A stretch of 64,000 bases of DNA from Pseudobdellovibrionaceae bacterium. GTDB lineage: Bacteria; Bdellovibrionota; Bdellovibrionia; Bdellovibrionales; UBA1609. Where the stretch lies: NCBI GenBank assembly GCA_947444305.1, contig CANEZP010000002.1, positions 124,001 through 188,000 of the forward strand, in the 5' to 3' direction. A program made the translations under genes and the position numbers. This document shows positions 56,090-62,121 of this stretch, piece by piece. Numbering within the stretch: the first letter of the stretch is position 1; each line of letters opens with the position of its first letter. The notes beneath the pieces are model-generated. The model made no database searches. It had not been told where the DNA came from and saw nothing but the letters and a program-made list of their open reading frames with translations.

Positions 56090-56158
56090 CGTCCTGACCG
56101 GTGATGGCCTCTTTTTTGCTCAAATTACCTCCTAATGCAGATCTATAGCGACAGGCTC

Positions 56159-57250
56159 ATGCGGCTGACAAATTTCGGCTTTTTCGGGACTCTTCTCGCG
56201 ACGATCTTTATGAGTTCCGTCGTATCTGCGGACTCTTGCGACGGTCTGCTTAAACTAGTTAAAGCGGTTCGTGTTTCAAATGAAATGTGTGGCCAGCTCA
56301 CTTCTTCAGATCTATGGCTGAAAGCGGATCAAGAACTTCCGAAGAGCGAGTTATCTGCTCTCATCGAACAGCTTTGGTTAAATCATCACGTCGCGGTGTT
56401 TTCCTCAGATCGAGCGAAGGGTTCGGCAAACGCTAAAGTTCTTTGTGCAAGCTCGCGCAAAGTTCCGCTTATTTCTGAACGTGCCGTACTTCTACCCGCG
56501 GTGGCTACGGAGTCTGAAGCGGTGAGAGATCTTCGTCGCATGCGTGAATTTTTAGCGCGGGGGAAATCGTTTGCGGAGTTGAATCATTACCTTCATTACC
56601 TAGGGGAAGGTGATCGTGCGAGTGCACTTGACGCAAATCATTCGGTTGAATCTCCGGACTCTAGGATTAAATTTGATTCGAACCTTTACGTTCAGGCCAC
56701 AGATATCGAGGCGGCGGCAAGAGTCCTCGCCGAGAATGATGATCCATCAATAATTATGCAGAAGATATTTGATATCTATCTTAATGCTCGAACGAGAAAG
56801 TTGTCTCCGCACGCACGTTGGACGGCACGCTACTCAGCTAATCACGCGCGCAAAGATTTGTTAGATCGTGAAAGAAAAGAGCGCAGGGGCGCGTGCGAGA
56901 GGGGATGGCTCACGAGCCGCTTGAGTGTCAATTGCGCAAAGGGGACATGGGGGTACTATGCCACCCTCGCTCACGAACTTGAGCATCACTTTCAAGTCAA
57001 CGTGGATACAAAATTACCGACTGAGCAAAAAATCGAATTGCTCTACCGAGATGAATTAGAATGCATTCGGGCAGAGTTTGATTTTTTAAGGCTCATCCCT
57101 CGGGATCGACGGGGCGAGATGCCTGCGGCCGGCGGCGGCGACGCCAGGATTGATTTATGGAAACTCGCGCGTGCCGGTAATTTCACTGACTTTCACAAGC
57201 AATCCTCCTACCCAGATCGGCAGGCGGTACGCGACACTTACAAACTCTAG
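56159..57250 (+). CDS. Secreted HExxH protein, possible zinc metallopeptidase
   Basis: This protein of about 363 residues starts with the signal peptide MRLTNFGFFGTLLATIFMSS. Toward the C-terminus, YYATLAHELEHHFQVN contains HExxH, the zinc-binding motif of metallopeptidases. About 25 residues later YRDELECIRAEFDF offers a glutamate that could be the third ligand. The rest is not recognised. A start at 56135 would add eight residues. Protease activity is inference from the motif. Confidence 0.6.
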   Translation: MRLTNFGFFGTLLATIFMSSVVSADSCDGLLKLVKAVRVSNEMCGQLTSSDLWLKADQELPKSELSALIEQLWLNHHVAVFSSDRAKGSANAKVLCASSRKVPLISERAVLLPAVATESEAVRDLRRMREFLARGKSFAELNHYLHYLGEGDRASALDANHSVESPDSRIKFDSNLYVQATDIEAAARVLAENDDPSIIMQKIFDIYLNARTRKLSPHARWTARYSANHARKDLLDRERKERRGACERGWLTSRLSVNCAKGTWGYYATLAHELEHHFQVNVDTKLPTEQKIELLYRDELECIRAEFDFLRLIPRDRRGEMPAAGGGDARIDLWKLARAGNFTDFHKQSSYPDRQAVRDTYKL

Positions 57251-57282: not shown

Positions 57283-58428
57283 CTACGGTAATTGAGGGCA
57301 ACGTAAAGTGACCGAGGTGCCCTTGCCTAATTCGGATCGAATGACGACGTCGCCGCCGCAGGCGCGAAGTGTATTGATGGCGTGGGAGAGGCCAAGGCCG
57401 CTTCCCCCGACCTTGCCTTCGGTGACGCCCGCATGACCCACGCGGCTCAGTAGTTCGTCGGTCATTCCTTTTCCGTTATCGGTTACGGTATATTCGCTGA
57501 ACGAGGCGGCCGTAGTTCCGCTCACGATAATTTCGCCTTTCGTGCCCAAAACTTCGACCGCGTTATTCAAAATGTTTGAAAACACCCGCGTTAAACCGGC
57601 CGGCGAAACTGCGAGGGGTGCCGTAGGTAAAGACTGAATGATGATTTTAATTTCTGAACGCGGGCCTAATGAAAAACTCTTTTCCGCGATGACTTGGCGA
57701 AGCAATTCATCGGGACTTTGCGCGACTTCGACCGGCCGGCTGCCGTCGAGAAGGTCTTGGGCAATCTCGTTGATGCGCCCGGCGGCGCCGGCGAGCAATT
57801 TGCGATGATCATCGGGAATGTTCTTTAAGCTCTTCTCAACAATCATCAGTGCGGAGAGTGGCGAGCGAATATCATGGGCAACCTGTCTTGCCATCGCGGC
57901 TTTGGCGTTGGCCCTTTCGAACGCTAACGATTCTTCGTGACGGGCGACGATCAGCGCACGGGCCCAACGGGAAAACGGCAGCGCGAAGCTCAACAGAACA
58001 AGCCAGACGAAGAACGCCACGCGGGTCGATGTCCAGCCGTCGTAATAAAAAGACAAAGTACCGACGTTACCCGCCGAGGGAGTCACCGGATCGTTCAACA
58101 CCTGAACCGGTATGCGTAGTTGAAAAAGACCGCGCGCGCCCGTTTCCGAAACGTCGGAGGGGAGTGAGAATACCGGGTGGCCCTCCGAAGTTTCAAAACG
58201 AACGGAATCGAAGTTACTTTTCAACGCAGGATTTAGAGTTAGCATCGCTTGCCGGAGGTCGTTGATCATGATGCTCGTGCGCGCCGACAGCGCGAACGAT
58301 TCCGCCAAGGACTTCTGGTGAAAATAATTGAGAACAAAGAACGCGGATAGAGAGATGACGAGAGCCGCCGCGTAAGCGCCGATCAAAGCTGTTCTTAATT
58401 TCTTCAAGGTGGCGTTTAAGTTGTTCAT
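57283..58428 (-). CDS. Sensor histidine kinase, last gene of the YcaO operon
   Basis: This 381-residue protein has TM1 (about residues 13-34), a periplasmic loop of about 100 residues, TM2 (about 137-155), then the HisKA domain with ARQVAHDIRSPLSALM (phospho-acceptor His185) and the ATPase domain with the N box SNILNNAVEVLG, G1 TDNGKGMTDE and G2 GGSGLGLSHAI. All catalytic motifs are intact. No response regulator is encoded next to it. It starts 5 bp after the YcaO stop, so it should be made with the YcaO protein and the binding protein. Confidence 0.9.
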   Translation of the reverse strand: MNNLNATLKKLRTALIGAYAAALVISLSAFFVLNYFHQKSLAESFALSARTSIMINDLRQAMLTLNPALKSNFDSVRFETSEGHPVFSLPSDVSETGARGLFQLRIPVQVLNDPVTPSAGNVGTLSFYYDGWTSTRVAFFVWLVLLSFALPFSRWARALIVARHEESLAFERANAKAAMARQVAHDIRSPLSALMIVEKSLKNIPDDHRKLLAGAAGRINEIAQDLLDGSRPVEVAQSPDELLRQVIAEKSFSLGPRSEIKIIIQSLPTAPLAVSPAGLTRVFSNILNNAVEVLGTKGEIIVSGTTAASFSEYTVTDNGKGMTDELLSRVGHAGVTEGKVGGSGLGLSHAINTLRACGGDVVIRSELGKGTSVTLRCPQLP

Positions 58429-58433
58429 GATTT

Positions 58434-59411
58434 CTAGTTAAATGGGTGAGGTAGTTTTGGCAATTGAACAAAAGTCCGGGGCGTTCCCAAAAACTCGGCG
58501 ATTCGGTTGACGTTCAGGTTGCGCGAATTCGGCGCGCCTAAAAACAGATCTTGGGCGCCGGAAGATTGCGCCCTCGCAAAGTACAAAGGACAGCCCGCCA
58601 ATTCGAGACTTTTACTGGTGATCATTTCAGTCTTGATCTTTTCGGCATCCATGGCGAACGACGGCTTCGCTTCGGCCGGCTTGAATAAGTGTTCGATCCT
58701 GGCGGCGTAAGCAAGATTCAACGCCAAGTTTCCATGATCGCGGAACGTGGGATTTGGGATCCGCAAGAAATCTTCCAAGGATTTTCCGGTTAAACCTCCG
58801 TCGGATTCAAGCAGGTGGGCCAACTGGCGCGTCGCCTCGAAGGCGGCCGCGGTTAAGGATTCGGACGGCGTACTTTTGTTACCGGCCCCGAGAATAAAGC
58901 CGAAAGGCCGCGCCTTATATTCTCGTCCATCGATAACCCAAAGGACCCCGGCCGTGCCGAGCTCAAAAAGTTGAAACGAGATTCCCTTATCGGCAAACCA
59001 CGGCGTGAGTTCGCGGATCAGGGGCGTTTGCGGAACGTCCTTACTTAACGCTACGAACGGGCGTTCTCCGTAGAAATGACAGAGGATGCCGTCGCGTTCG
59101 ATCAATTCACCGCGGGCCGAAGCGGCGGCGGCTTCCGGCGTGGCGTGGGCGGCGAGACCGTTCGTCGTCGGGAAATTGAATTCCTCACTGACGGCCCGCT
59201 CGACCGCTTCGGCGGTTGCTTTGACCAAGGCGAGATCCGCGTCTTCGTCGGCCGAAAAGCCCGTAAATATTTTGCCGCCGATCGAGACCTGAACGCGTAG
59301 ATCGGTGAATCGCGGCAGGACGGACCGAACCCAGCTGAGTTGATCGATTTTCAACTTCAGGGGACCGGCATTGCTAAGAATCCATAGGACTATTTCTTTT
59401 GCATCCGCCAT
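58434..59411 (-). CDS. YcaO-domain protein, candidate peptide cyclodehydratase
   Basis: This is a protein of about 325 residues. ATP-binding motifs of YcaO enzymes are seen in order: ALVKATAEAVERAV (residues 61-74), NGLAAHATPEAAAASAR and GELIERDGILCHFYG (101-115), then ESLTAAAFEATRQLAHLL with the E...Q pair. The C-terminus is QLPKLPHPFN, close to the PxPxP tail that azoline-forming YcaO proteins need. YcaO enzymes use ATP to activate peptide backbone amides, forming azolines, thioamides or amidines. The partner (E1-like or Ocin-ThiF domain) is absent. The ATG at 59411 overlaps the upstream SBP gene by 22 bp; a histidine kinase follows. Confidence 0.82.
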   Translation of the reverse strand: MADAKEIVLWILSNAGPLKLKIDQLSWVRSVLPRFTDLRVQVSIGGKIFTGFSADEDADLALVKATAEAVERAVSEEFNFPTTNGLAAHATPEAAAASARGELIERDGILCHFYGERPFVALSKDVPQTPLIRELTPWFADKGISFQLFELGTAGVLWVIDGREYKARPFGFILGAGNKSTPSESLTAAAFEATRQLAHLLESDGGLTGKSLEDFLRIPNPTFRDHGNLALNLAYAARIEHLFKPAEAKPSFAMDAEKIKTEMITSKSLELAGCPLYFARAQSSGAQDLFLGAPNSRNLNVNRIAEFLGTPRTFVQLPKLPHPFN

Positions 59412-60853
59412 AGATCCGTCGTTGAAGATAAGTTGGAAAAGTTTAATGACCACTCGCTTGAGGCGACCGCGTAATAGGGTGAAGCCGAGAAAGGATAGAT
59501 GACGACGTTTTTGAGTAACTCAAAATGAAGCCGGTTCAGCTTAACGATGCGCTCTTCTTTAGAACTTGTCGCTAGATAATCGTCGAGCCACGAGTCGGTT
59601 GAAAGACCATCCAGATGAAAAATGCCGACCTCGAAATTATGCCCCAATAAAGATAGATTCTCGTTCCAAGCCGAATCGGTTGCGCCGAAATACATGTCCG
59701 GACGTTGCTTCATCTCATATTCAAAAGGAAAGCGTTCCATCCCGACGACCTTGATGTCCGTTTGCGCAGAAAATTCTTTTTTATAAGCCTCGGCGTAATT
59801 GAATTGCACACCGAGGGTGATCGGCTTGTGTAATGTTTCGGCGGTGCGGCGCACTTCCTCGACGTCCACGGCTTGCTCTGCCGTCAGTGAACCGTCACTG
59901 AGCGCTTGGAAAAATTGAAATGTAGGCCGGCCCGTCGGTGAGGGATAGAGCTTCGTCTTTGCGGCGGCGTAGGTCTGTGCCGCGCGTAATCTTTCTTGAA
60001 CGGAAAAGTTCTTTACCGCCGCTTTAGAAAAGCAAACGAGATCGACTCGGAAAGGTTGCGAAGAAAAAATAGAAAAATTTGACGATTCGGAAAGGAGTCT
60101 GGCCACCGCCTCCCCCGAGTAATATTCCGAAGTCGTGACCAAATCGACTTGGCCACTCTCGAGCAGAGCCGGCCCGGCACCCATCGCCGTCGGGACCATG
60201 TGAACGGTTTGCGGCATGGTCGGCTTATAATGAAAGTGACCGGGATTCGCCTGGAGGGTTATCCGGCCGTCGGCTGAATCGATCGAGACGAAGTAAGGTC
60301 CCGAGGTATTTCTAAAGTCGATGATTGTACGACCGTCTTCGTTCAACGAGGAACGCGGAATAATTCCGTAGTCGGCGCTCTCCAGCGCTGAGATCAAAAG
60401 CGGGACGTAGTGGGCTTGAACCGGGGTGAGCACGAGTTTATTCCCGTCCGTGCGGATGCCCGGGCAATGATCCATGACGGATTTTAAAGTGAAGTTCGGG
60501 CAAAGGAGCCTACGTATATCGCCGTGCCCGCTGCGGCCCAACGCGATCAAACGTTTGAGAGAAAATGCTGCGTCGTCGGCGGTGATAAGGTGACCGTCGA
60601 TCGTCGTGATCTTTTTGCCGAAGGTAAAAACAACTTCAGCGTTTTGTGCCTTAAAAGAGTCGGCGGCGCCGGCGACGAGTTGGTGATCGGCGTTATATTC
60701 GATCAAACGGGTGAATAGATTATTGGCTAAATTATATTGGGTGAGCGTGTGCAGCTTTGCCGTGTCTAGCGCTTTGATGCTTTCAAAGTACGGATATGAA
60801 ACACGCAAAACGGCATCCTTAAGTTCTGGTGAGGGCGTATGACGGGGAAGCAA
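59390..60853 (-). CDS. Peptide-type substrate-binding protein (SBP_bac_5), membrane anchored
   Basis: This is a protein of 487 residues from the nearest conventional start, TTG 60853. It has LTQYNLANNLFTRLIEYNAD, FGKKITTIDGHLITADDAAF and SLKRLI, the N-terminal pattern of OppA/DppA-type binding proteins. The same frame stays open upstream, without ATG, GTG or TTG, and codes RLNSNPALKLIAAGLVIAAA then AAIFLLP, a clear membrane anchor. An ATT at 60928, two bases after the small-peptide stop, could be the true start (512 residues). No permease or ATPase genes are near, so uptake by its own ABC system is not implied. It overlaps the YcaO start by 22 bp. Confidence 0.82.
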   Translation of the reverse strand: MLPRHTPSPELKDAVLRVSYPYFESIKALDTAKLHTLTQYNLANNLFTRLIEYNADHQLVAGAADSFKAQNAEVVFTFGKKITTIDGHLITADDAAFSLKRLIALGRSGHGDIRRLLCPNFTLKSVMDHCPGIRTDGNKLVLTPVQAHYVPLLISALESADYGIIPRSSLNEDGRTIIDFRNTSGPYFVSIDSADGRITLQANPGHFHYKPTMPQTVHMVPTAMGAGPALLESGQVDLVTTSEYYSGEAVARLLSESSNFSIFSSQPFRVDLVCFSKAAVKNFSVQERLRAAQTYAAAKTKLYPSPTGRPTFQFFQALSDGSLTAEQAVDVEEVRRTAETLHKPITLGVQFNYAEAYKKEFSAQTDIKVVGMERFPFEYEMKQRPDMYFGATDSAWNENLSLLGHNFEVGIFHLDGLSTDSWLDDYLATSSKEERIVKLNRLHFELLKNVVIYPFSASPYYAVASSEWSLNFSNLSSTTDLWRMQKK

Positions 60854-60929
60854 AAAGATAGCGGCCGCGGCCGCTATGACGAGCCCGGCAGCAATTAACT
60901 TAAGTGCCGGGTTTGAATTAAGTCGAATA

Positions 60930-61211
60930 CTAACAACCGCCGCCGACCGAGCTGCTGCAGTTCACTCCGGCTTCAACTTGGCTGGGCTGCAGTTCGTTCA
61001 CGGCTCCAAGGCTGCGCAACATTTCAAGGACCGACGAGTTGACGGTCAATTTACCACTTTGATCAACCTTGATTTGACCTGCCTGGATGAGCGCGGCCAT
61101 CGCCTCCGCGGATTCAACATCTGCGGTGCTGGGTAAGCCTGCGCCGGAAGTCGAAGCGGTGATAAGTGATGAAACGAGAGCGAGGGACTTAAGGAATTGA
61201 TTTGCGTTCAA
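60930..61211 (-). CDS. Candidate RiPP precursor peptide with Cys/Ser/Gly-rich C-terminus
   Basis: This 93-residue protein starts at TTG 61211, with GGAG 6 bases upstream. Residues 1-25 (NANQFLKSLALVSSLITAS) are hydrophobic and could be a signal or leader. The middle is helical and acidic (VESAEAMAALIQAGQIKVD, VLEMLRSLGAVNEL). The last ten residues are NCSSSVGGGC, containing both cysteines of the protein. Such a tail resembles cores of azole-modified peptides. It is the first gene of the SBP-YcaO-kinase operon. An upstream open frame to 61349 has no ribosome site. Alternative: an ordinary small secreted protein. Confidence 0.6.
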   Translation of the reverse strand: MNANQFLKSLALVSSLITASTSGAGLPSTADVESAEAMAALIQAGQIKVDQSGKLTVNSSVLEMLRSLGAVNELQPSQVEAGVNCSSSVGGGC

Positions 61212-61590: not shown

Positions 61591-62121
61591 ATGAGAAGAA
61601 AAGCCCAACAAGAGTTTAAAGGTGAAGGTCTGCAAAGGCCGGCCGATGGCTTTGGCGGGCATCTTCTCAAAGGTAATCCGAAGACCAAACGTCCCTTGCA
61701 TTCGAAGCTACCCATCCATCTCACCATGCGGGCGACGAAGAGCGTGATGCGCCATCCGAAAACGTTTGGGAAAGTGGAGGGGTTGATTTACTCGGTCGCG
61801 CGGAAGCATGGGGTGAAGGTTTATAAGCACGCGAACGTCGGCAATCATTTGCACCTGGCCATCAAAATTTCGCACGTGCGCCGGTGGGCTGGATTTATTC
61901 GTGAGTTAAGCGGGCGCATTGCTTTGGCGTGCCGGCATATTAAAGGCGACGGCGGTTTCTGGCTTTACCGGCCTCACACCCGGGTCGTTCGGGGCTGGAA
62001 AAAGGCTTGGCAGATCGTGAAGGACTACGTGGACCTCAATCAGCTTGAGGCGGATGGGTTTATATCGCGGCGTGAGATTAAGACCTTGAAGGATCTGCGC
62101 GATATTTTTTCGACCGGTTAG
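61591..62121 (+). CDS. REP-associated tyrosine transposase (RAYT, Y1 family)
   Basis: This 176-residue protein has SKLPIHLTMRATKSVM in the first part, the HUH motif HANVGNHLHLAIKISHVRRW, and the nucleophile tyrosine in VKDYVDLNQLEADGF. This is the full set of Y1 transposase motifs. RAYTs are single-copy, domesticated relatives of IS200/IS605 transposases linked to the spread of REP palindromes. Length and motifs are complete, so it may be active. A REP-like hairpin lies upstream and a GATC-rich stretch downstream. Confidence 0.85.
   Translation: MRRKAQQEFKGEGLQRPADGFGGHLLKGNPKTKRPLHSKLPIHLTMRATKSVMRHPKTFGKVEGLIYSVARKHGVKVYKHANVGNHLHLAIKISHVRRWAGFIRELSGRIALACRHIKGDGGFWLYRPHTRVVRGWKKAWQIVKDYVDLNQLEADGFISRREIKTLKDLRDIFSTG

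Follow-up and report, generated by a model that had tools for sequence, protein, structure and literature searches.

Precursor, modifying enzyme, histidine kinase and response regulator are encoded together in comQXPA (the Bacillus ComX pheromone) and in agrBDCA. In the nisin and subtilin systems (NisRK, SpaRK), a RiPP induces its own genes through a histidine kinase that senses it, and in LuxP-LuxQ and ChvE-VirA a periplasmic binding protein is coupled to a membrane kinase. The operon described here looks like a peptide-signalling system that was previously undescribed. We lean towards the reading that a peptide modified by a YcaO enzyme is exported, captured by a tethered solute-binding protein (SBP) and reported by a histidine kinase (HK). 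The literature on YcaO with kinases, SBPs or Bdellovibrio did not describe this combination, subscription journals and preprints being largely outside the coverage.

The window, i.e. the whole stretch of 64,000 nt that was analysed (G000:C2:124001-188000), belongs to a genome of 4.17 Mb in 29 contigs. The first-pass annotation had claimed four packed minus-strand genes, and all of them were confirmed at 57283-61211 by coordinates, Pfam and fold. Reading of the ORFs gave the order pep-SBP-YcaO-HK:

60930..61211, minus strand: small exported precursor-like protein, 93 aa (from sequence; same-genus homologue L016:11828-12097, blast E 3e-6)
60933..60959, minus strand: putative core CSSSVGGGC, Cys85-Cys93
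59390..60928, minus strand: membrane-anchored OppA-fold SBP (weak Pfam match, AlphaFold model, N-terminal helix)
58434..59411 (open frame to 59453), minus strand: YcaO enzyme, cytoplasmic (Pfam PF02624, ATP/Mg motifs)
57283..58428, minus strand: sensor histidine kinase (Pfam HATPase_c, topology read from sequence)

No exporter, protease, TfuA, SagB partner or immunity gene was present within the operon. An Rfam search gave no match, and a sigma70 scan of the operon gave no score above those of shuffled sequences. Upstream and divergent lies a REP-associated-transposase-like gene (61591-62121, plus strand; Y1-type, HLHLAIK motif), and genes of similar look also flank the operons L121 and L122. 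On the other side, an exported protein with a HELEHHF zinc-protease-like motif (56135-57250, plus strand) converges on the 3' end of the operon, 32 bp off; it had no Pfam match, and no counterpart adjoins the operons of relatives.

The four-gene operon is more than a chance arrangement and is strongly conserved, since the pep-SBP-YcaO-HK order repeats in dozens of divergent loci, with genes overlapping or nearly abutting (median gaps of -22 bp for SBP-YcaO and -4 bp for YcaO-HK). The neighbourhood comparison proposed by the first-pass annotation came out in its favour. An unbiased YcaO search of 59 related genomes gave 14 matches. Each of them adjoins a histidine kinase and an SBP of this type, and upstream of the SBP there is a small ORF whose product looks exported; none was a YcaO gene lacking the small ORF or the SBP, the case that had been named as contrary evidence. 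In four of the 14 (L024, L026-L028) the order was YcaO-pep-SBP-HK-RR. SBP profile searches detected 21 loci in the named genomes, 52 in 37 of 369 genomes of the phylum, and 13 in 12 of 295 Elusimicrobiota genomes. The SBP-led searches yielded a tree set of 61 non-redundant loci, chiefly from Bdellovibrionota. A search of viral contigs with the SBP alignment and of plasmids with the SBP protein gave no match; neither did a single-sequence YcaO scan of genome contigs, from which the SBP alignment did recover loci.

In the tree, the window copy clusters with L016, L111 and L112 (support 100/99). Distances between SBP, YcaO and HK sequences correlate (Mantel 0.73-0.85, 0 of 2000 permutations), as shared ancestry alone would also make them do. 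Two genomes (G242, G246) carry several loci each with differing cores, as expected of separate signal types. A dense direct-repeat array, probably CRISPR, was seen immediately upstream of one operon (L020:11700-15900, in a closed genome of 2,657,893 bases).

YcaO was present in 57 of the 61 tree-set loci. The remaining four were two contig ends (L030, L104), a genome with no YcaO match (L047) and a decayed-looking copy (L117). In addition, five Elusimicrobiota loci (L142, L148, L150, L151, L152) encode SBP and HK without YcaO, and in four of the five a small exported ORF adjoins the SBP. Persistence of pep-SBP-HK in these copies suggests a system built around peptide and receptor, to which YcaO adds a layer of modification. 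The self-contained modified-peptide sensing unit proposed at first thus held for its gene order, its exported small protein and the conserved Cys, but YcaO proved dispensable to the architecture. One of the YcaO-less loci, L150, has two short exported ORFs in tandem, with no terminal Cys.

The small protein was said to end in NCSSSVGGGC, which was confirmed for a product of 93 aa read from a TTG start at 61211 with a GGAG-like ribosome-binding site. It has a hydrophobic signal-like N-terminus, a middle segment IKVDQSGKLTVNSSVLEMLRSLGAV and this C-terminal tail. A positively charged, hydrophobic signal-like N-terminus was found in 52 of 58 small proteins, and a hydrophobic N-terminus in 4 of 58 YcaOs; the small protein would, from its sequence, be made with an export signal. 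A Cys was present within the last 20 aa of 51 of 59 small proteins, versus 40% of control small ORFs. Its context is mostly [S/T/V]-[I/V]-C, with I or V preceding the Cys in 27 of 46, and core regions of relatives include PTTICVGGGAF, SSDVICVGGA, RGGTICF and GEGTVCI. The window and sister tails have two Cys (NCSSSVGGGC, GCGSSVGNGC). The rest of the sequence changes fast among loci, and Ser/Gly richness of the tail was seen in some loci only. Of the conserved Cys/Ser/Gly tail expected by the first-pass annotation, conservation extends to the Cys with its preceding residues but not to the Ser/Gly part. A C-terminal Cys is missing from the YcaO-adjoining peptides of L027, L045, L143, L147, L122 and L021. 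In L112 (8350-8748, minus strand), the precursor frame apparently breaks off shortly ahead of a core-like SSCQRTTGGC, which is read in the next frame.

The place of the Cys, which lies at the very C-terminus or close to it between variable flanks, bears on another possible role of the small protein: it might assist or inhibit the SBP-kinase pair in the periplasm (CpxP-like), with its Cys used for disulfides and YcaO acting on another target. Many small proteins would suit such a role, having a mature part of at least 70 aa with a common beta-beta-helix-like segment and, in many cases, two Cys. The same can be said of the weak helix/strand signal in the structure prediction, itself of low confidence (pLDDT 53), and of the pep-SBP-HK sets that persist without YcaO in Elusimicrobiota. 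However, besides the position of the Cys, a Ser stands near the usual Cys place in L122, L111 carries a tandem pair of precursor genes whose C-terminal cores are repeated (KSTAKCNMA, KTTGRCETI, KSSGKCEGI), and the YcaO of the tree-set loci adjoins both peptide and SBP. We regard the accessory role as unlikely and keep to the small protein as precursor of a modified signal.

The YcaO gene matched PF02624 with E=4e-13 (49.7 bits, for a cut-off of 25.7), and its product is intact: the window copy has the ExxER...ExxER...E motifs and a C-terminal PHPF, and the ATP/Mg residues E82, E85, R86, E116, E119, R120 and E206 are 95-100% conserved over 58 loci. PHPxx ends many of the YcaOs, and those of one clade have no PHP part. 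Among proteins of solved structure, MJ1094 comes closest, together with the TOMM cyclodehydratases MusD, McbD, TruD and LynD. Translation probably starts at ATG 59411, overlapping the end of the SBP gene, since relatives share M(A/E)xxx..WL from that point. YcaO would modify the C-terminal Cys region of the small protein. Most plausibly, Cys/Ser would be heterocyclised with the preceding residue; because no C protein (E1/ocin-ThiF, leader binding) is encoded in the operon, and neither SagB nor TfuA stands beside YcaO, this chemistry is a guess from family knowledge. In the window genome, which holds a single YcaO, there was no TIGR03605 match (SagB-type dehydrogenase) and no PF07812 match (TfuA). 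The sole TIGR03882-scoring protein, an E1-like protein on G000:C3, was considered as a YcaO partner and rejected; relatives carrying the system hold only distant ThiF/MoeB-like matches. That protein, which has an N-terminal extension and scores over the cut-off, belongs to a separate RiPP-like cluster (L132:5185-10392, about 19-24 kb on G000:C3), with genes for an MFS protein, an HTTM/VKGC-like membrane protein, a GNAT protein and a further product that has a TldD/PmbA-like motif (HESLGHRLESDDF).

The modified product would then be exported and trimmed by proteases, and its C-terminal peptide bound by the SBP. For the latter, a membrane-anchored SBP_bac_5 protein had been claimed. The Pfam match is sub-threshold (E=2.6e-4, 20.7 bits, for a cut-off of 32.4), but the AlphaFold model (pLDDT about 88) clearly predicts an OppA/AapF/NikA fold, with VIA Z of 26-30 over about 445 residues (29.7 for AapF, 7kz8) and a Foldseek E of 7e-27 to OppA. 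The window SBP has an N-terminal anchoring helix and no lipobox; a lipobox was found in 6 of 78 SBPs, duplicates included. No ATG, GTG or TTG precedes the membrane helix in the frame. An ATT at 60928, immediately past the first base of the upstream stop, would yield the N-terminus seen in relatives, which points either to a rare ATT start or to a sequence error. In E. coli OppA, D445 is the Asp that docks the peptide N-terminus (PMC5736914); the invariant Asp418 of the SBP aligns two residues off. Among the loci read, no ABC permease or ATPase gene was found in the operon. The SBP would thus be tethered outside the inner membrane without a permease, its fold being predicted and its ligand presumed, and would present the peptide to the kinase at its periplasmic loop.

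The window kinase consists of a TM segment, a periplasmic loop of about 100 aa, a second TM segment, HisKA (HDIRSP) and HATPase, with no fused receiver domain. Its HATPase_c match was strong (E=7e-16) and its HisKA match sub-threshold; 43 of 56 kinases have a strict H-box pattern. The kinase would phosphorylate a response regulator, which in most relatives would be an NtrC-type sigma54 activator from the same operon: 36 relatives have such an in-line regulator (REC + Sigma54_activat), contiguous with precursor, YcaO and kinase, and in many of these loci the kinase is longer by a further region at its C-terminus. Using a matrix written by us from the known consensus, a sigma54-like site was detected at the operon head in 29 of the 36 regulator loci, versus 6 of 23 regulator-less loci and 6% of control upstream regions; the site of L023 is a strong one. 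Such a regulator with a matching promoter-like site suggests autoinduction, in which the promoter heading the operon would give positive feedback. No regulator lies beside the window copy, whose best sigma54-like site is weak (p about 0.16); NtrC-type matches number at least 14 in the window genome, none of them adjacent, and the copy presumably uses one of these from elsewhere in the genome. The absence of a regulator noted in the first-pass annotation thus applies to the clade of the window copy and to certain other clades, but not to the 36 relatives.

The fold of the SBP is shared by MppA, which binds a murein tripeptide, and by nutrient SBPs, and the hosts are related to predatory bacteria, so that the SBP-kinase pair might instead sense outside peptides derived from prey or murein, peptide and YcaO being the output, e.g. 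a RiPP antimicrobial. Two-component systems can indeed occur in RiPP clusters (PMC10352776). An output of this kind fits poorly with an operon that has no exporter or immunity gene and a precursor with a Sec-like signal, with the enzyme gene sandwiched between SBP and kinase, and with a promoter-like site that precedes the entire operon, sensor included. We judge it quite improbable and retain the reading in which the operon's own peptide is the signal.

Linkage to conjugation was marked in part of the loci. A VirB4/TraC gene lies within 20 kb of 20 of 56 SBP loci, where about 1.8% would be expected; a simple binomial, which takes no account of how closely the loci are related, gives P about 4e-21. 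Downstream of the L022 operon, Pfam supports TraC, VirB8 and CagX, and TraL weakly. Small genes recur between the kinase and TraL/TraC of the conjugative module in L022, L086, L088, L089 and L091, with a CPKCGS zinc-ribbon, 'SRTLKDK' and 'NNVVPIRK'. Sigma54 sites between kinase and tra genes were found in L022, L091 and L105 only, too few for a claim. The proximity to VirB4/TraC could mean that conjugative elements carry the operon for defence or addiction, with no signalling peptide. This is very improbable, as the operon encodes a full two-component chain and no toxin-like or nuclease gene, and many copies have no VirB4 nearby or even in the genome. The window genome itself has no such VirB4, nor is there one near L016, L111 or L112; the window copy is a member of a chromosomal clade without in-line regulator.

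Under the signalling reading, conjugative transfer is a likely output where the operon adjoins a type IV secretion locus, and the peptide might serve a quorum or mating function. It is conceivable, though we think it somewhat doubtful, that this is a RiPP pheromone of diderm bacteria, YcaO-modified, Sec-exported and perceived by a tethered OppA-like receptor with its kinase, which on conjugative elements of Bdellovibrionota would time DNA transfer by sensing neighbours with or without the same element. If true, it would represent a separate class of peptide signalling beyond Gram-positives and an undescribed role for stand-alone YcaO enzymes, in making signals rather than antibiotics. It would also give a handle on the communication of relatives of predatory bacteria and of their conjugative elements. 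The conserved sigma54-like promoter and the short C-terminal core open it to direct tests in which synthetic peptides are combined with a reporter.

Compared with OppA/PrgZ/AapF-type binding proteins, the SBP has the same fold, but it is membrane-anchored and encoded beside a kinase gene, without ABC permease or ATPase. Its pairing with a membrane kinase is shared with LuxP-LuxQ and ChvE-VirA, which use sugar-type ligands and other SBP families, and whose operons encode neither a precursor nor a modifying enzyme. A short precursor close to YcaO is likewise found in TOMM/LAP and stand-alone YcaO clusters (bottromycin, thioamitides); in the present loci it mostly has a C-terminal Cys, and in some of them Ser/Gly richness as well. 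In contrast to those clusters, the operon lacks a C protein, a SagB dehydrogenase, TfuA, a radical SAM enzyme and an exporter; its precursor has an export signal, and sensor genes are found instead. Nisin and subtilin autoinduction likewise involves a kinase-sensed RiPP driving its own genes, but with lanthipeptide machinery, exporter and immunity, and without SBP. As in comQXPA and agrBDCA, enzyme, precursor and kinase occur together, joined by the regulator in 36 relatives, with a likely positive feedback, whereas the enzyme here is a YcaO and not an isoprenyl transferase or AgrB, and an SBP, an NtrC/sigma54 regulator and didermal hosts set it apart. By membership, the operon is none of the comQXPA, agr and nisin systems, nor a standard TOMM cluster; by logic, our best reading is that it would work like comQXPA, agr or nisin autoinduction, with unrelated parts.
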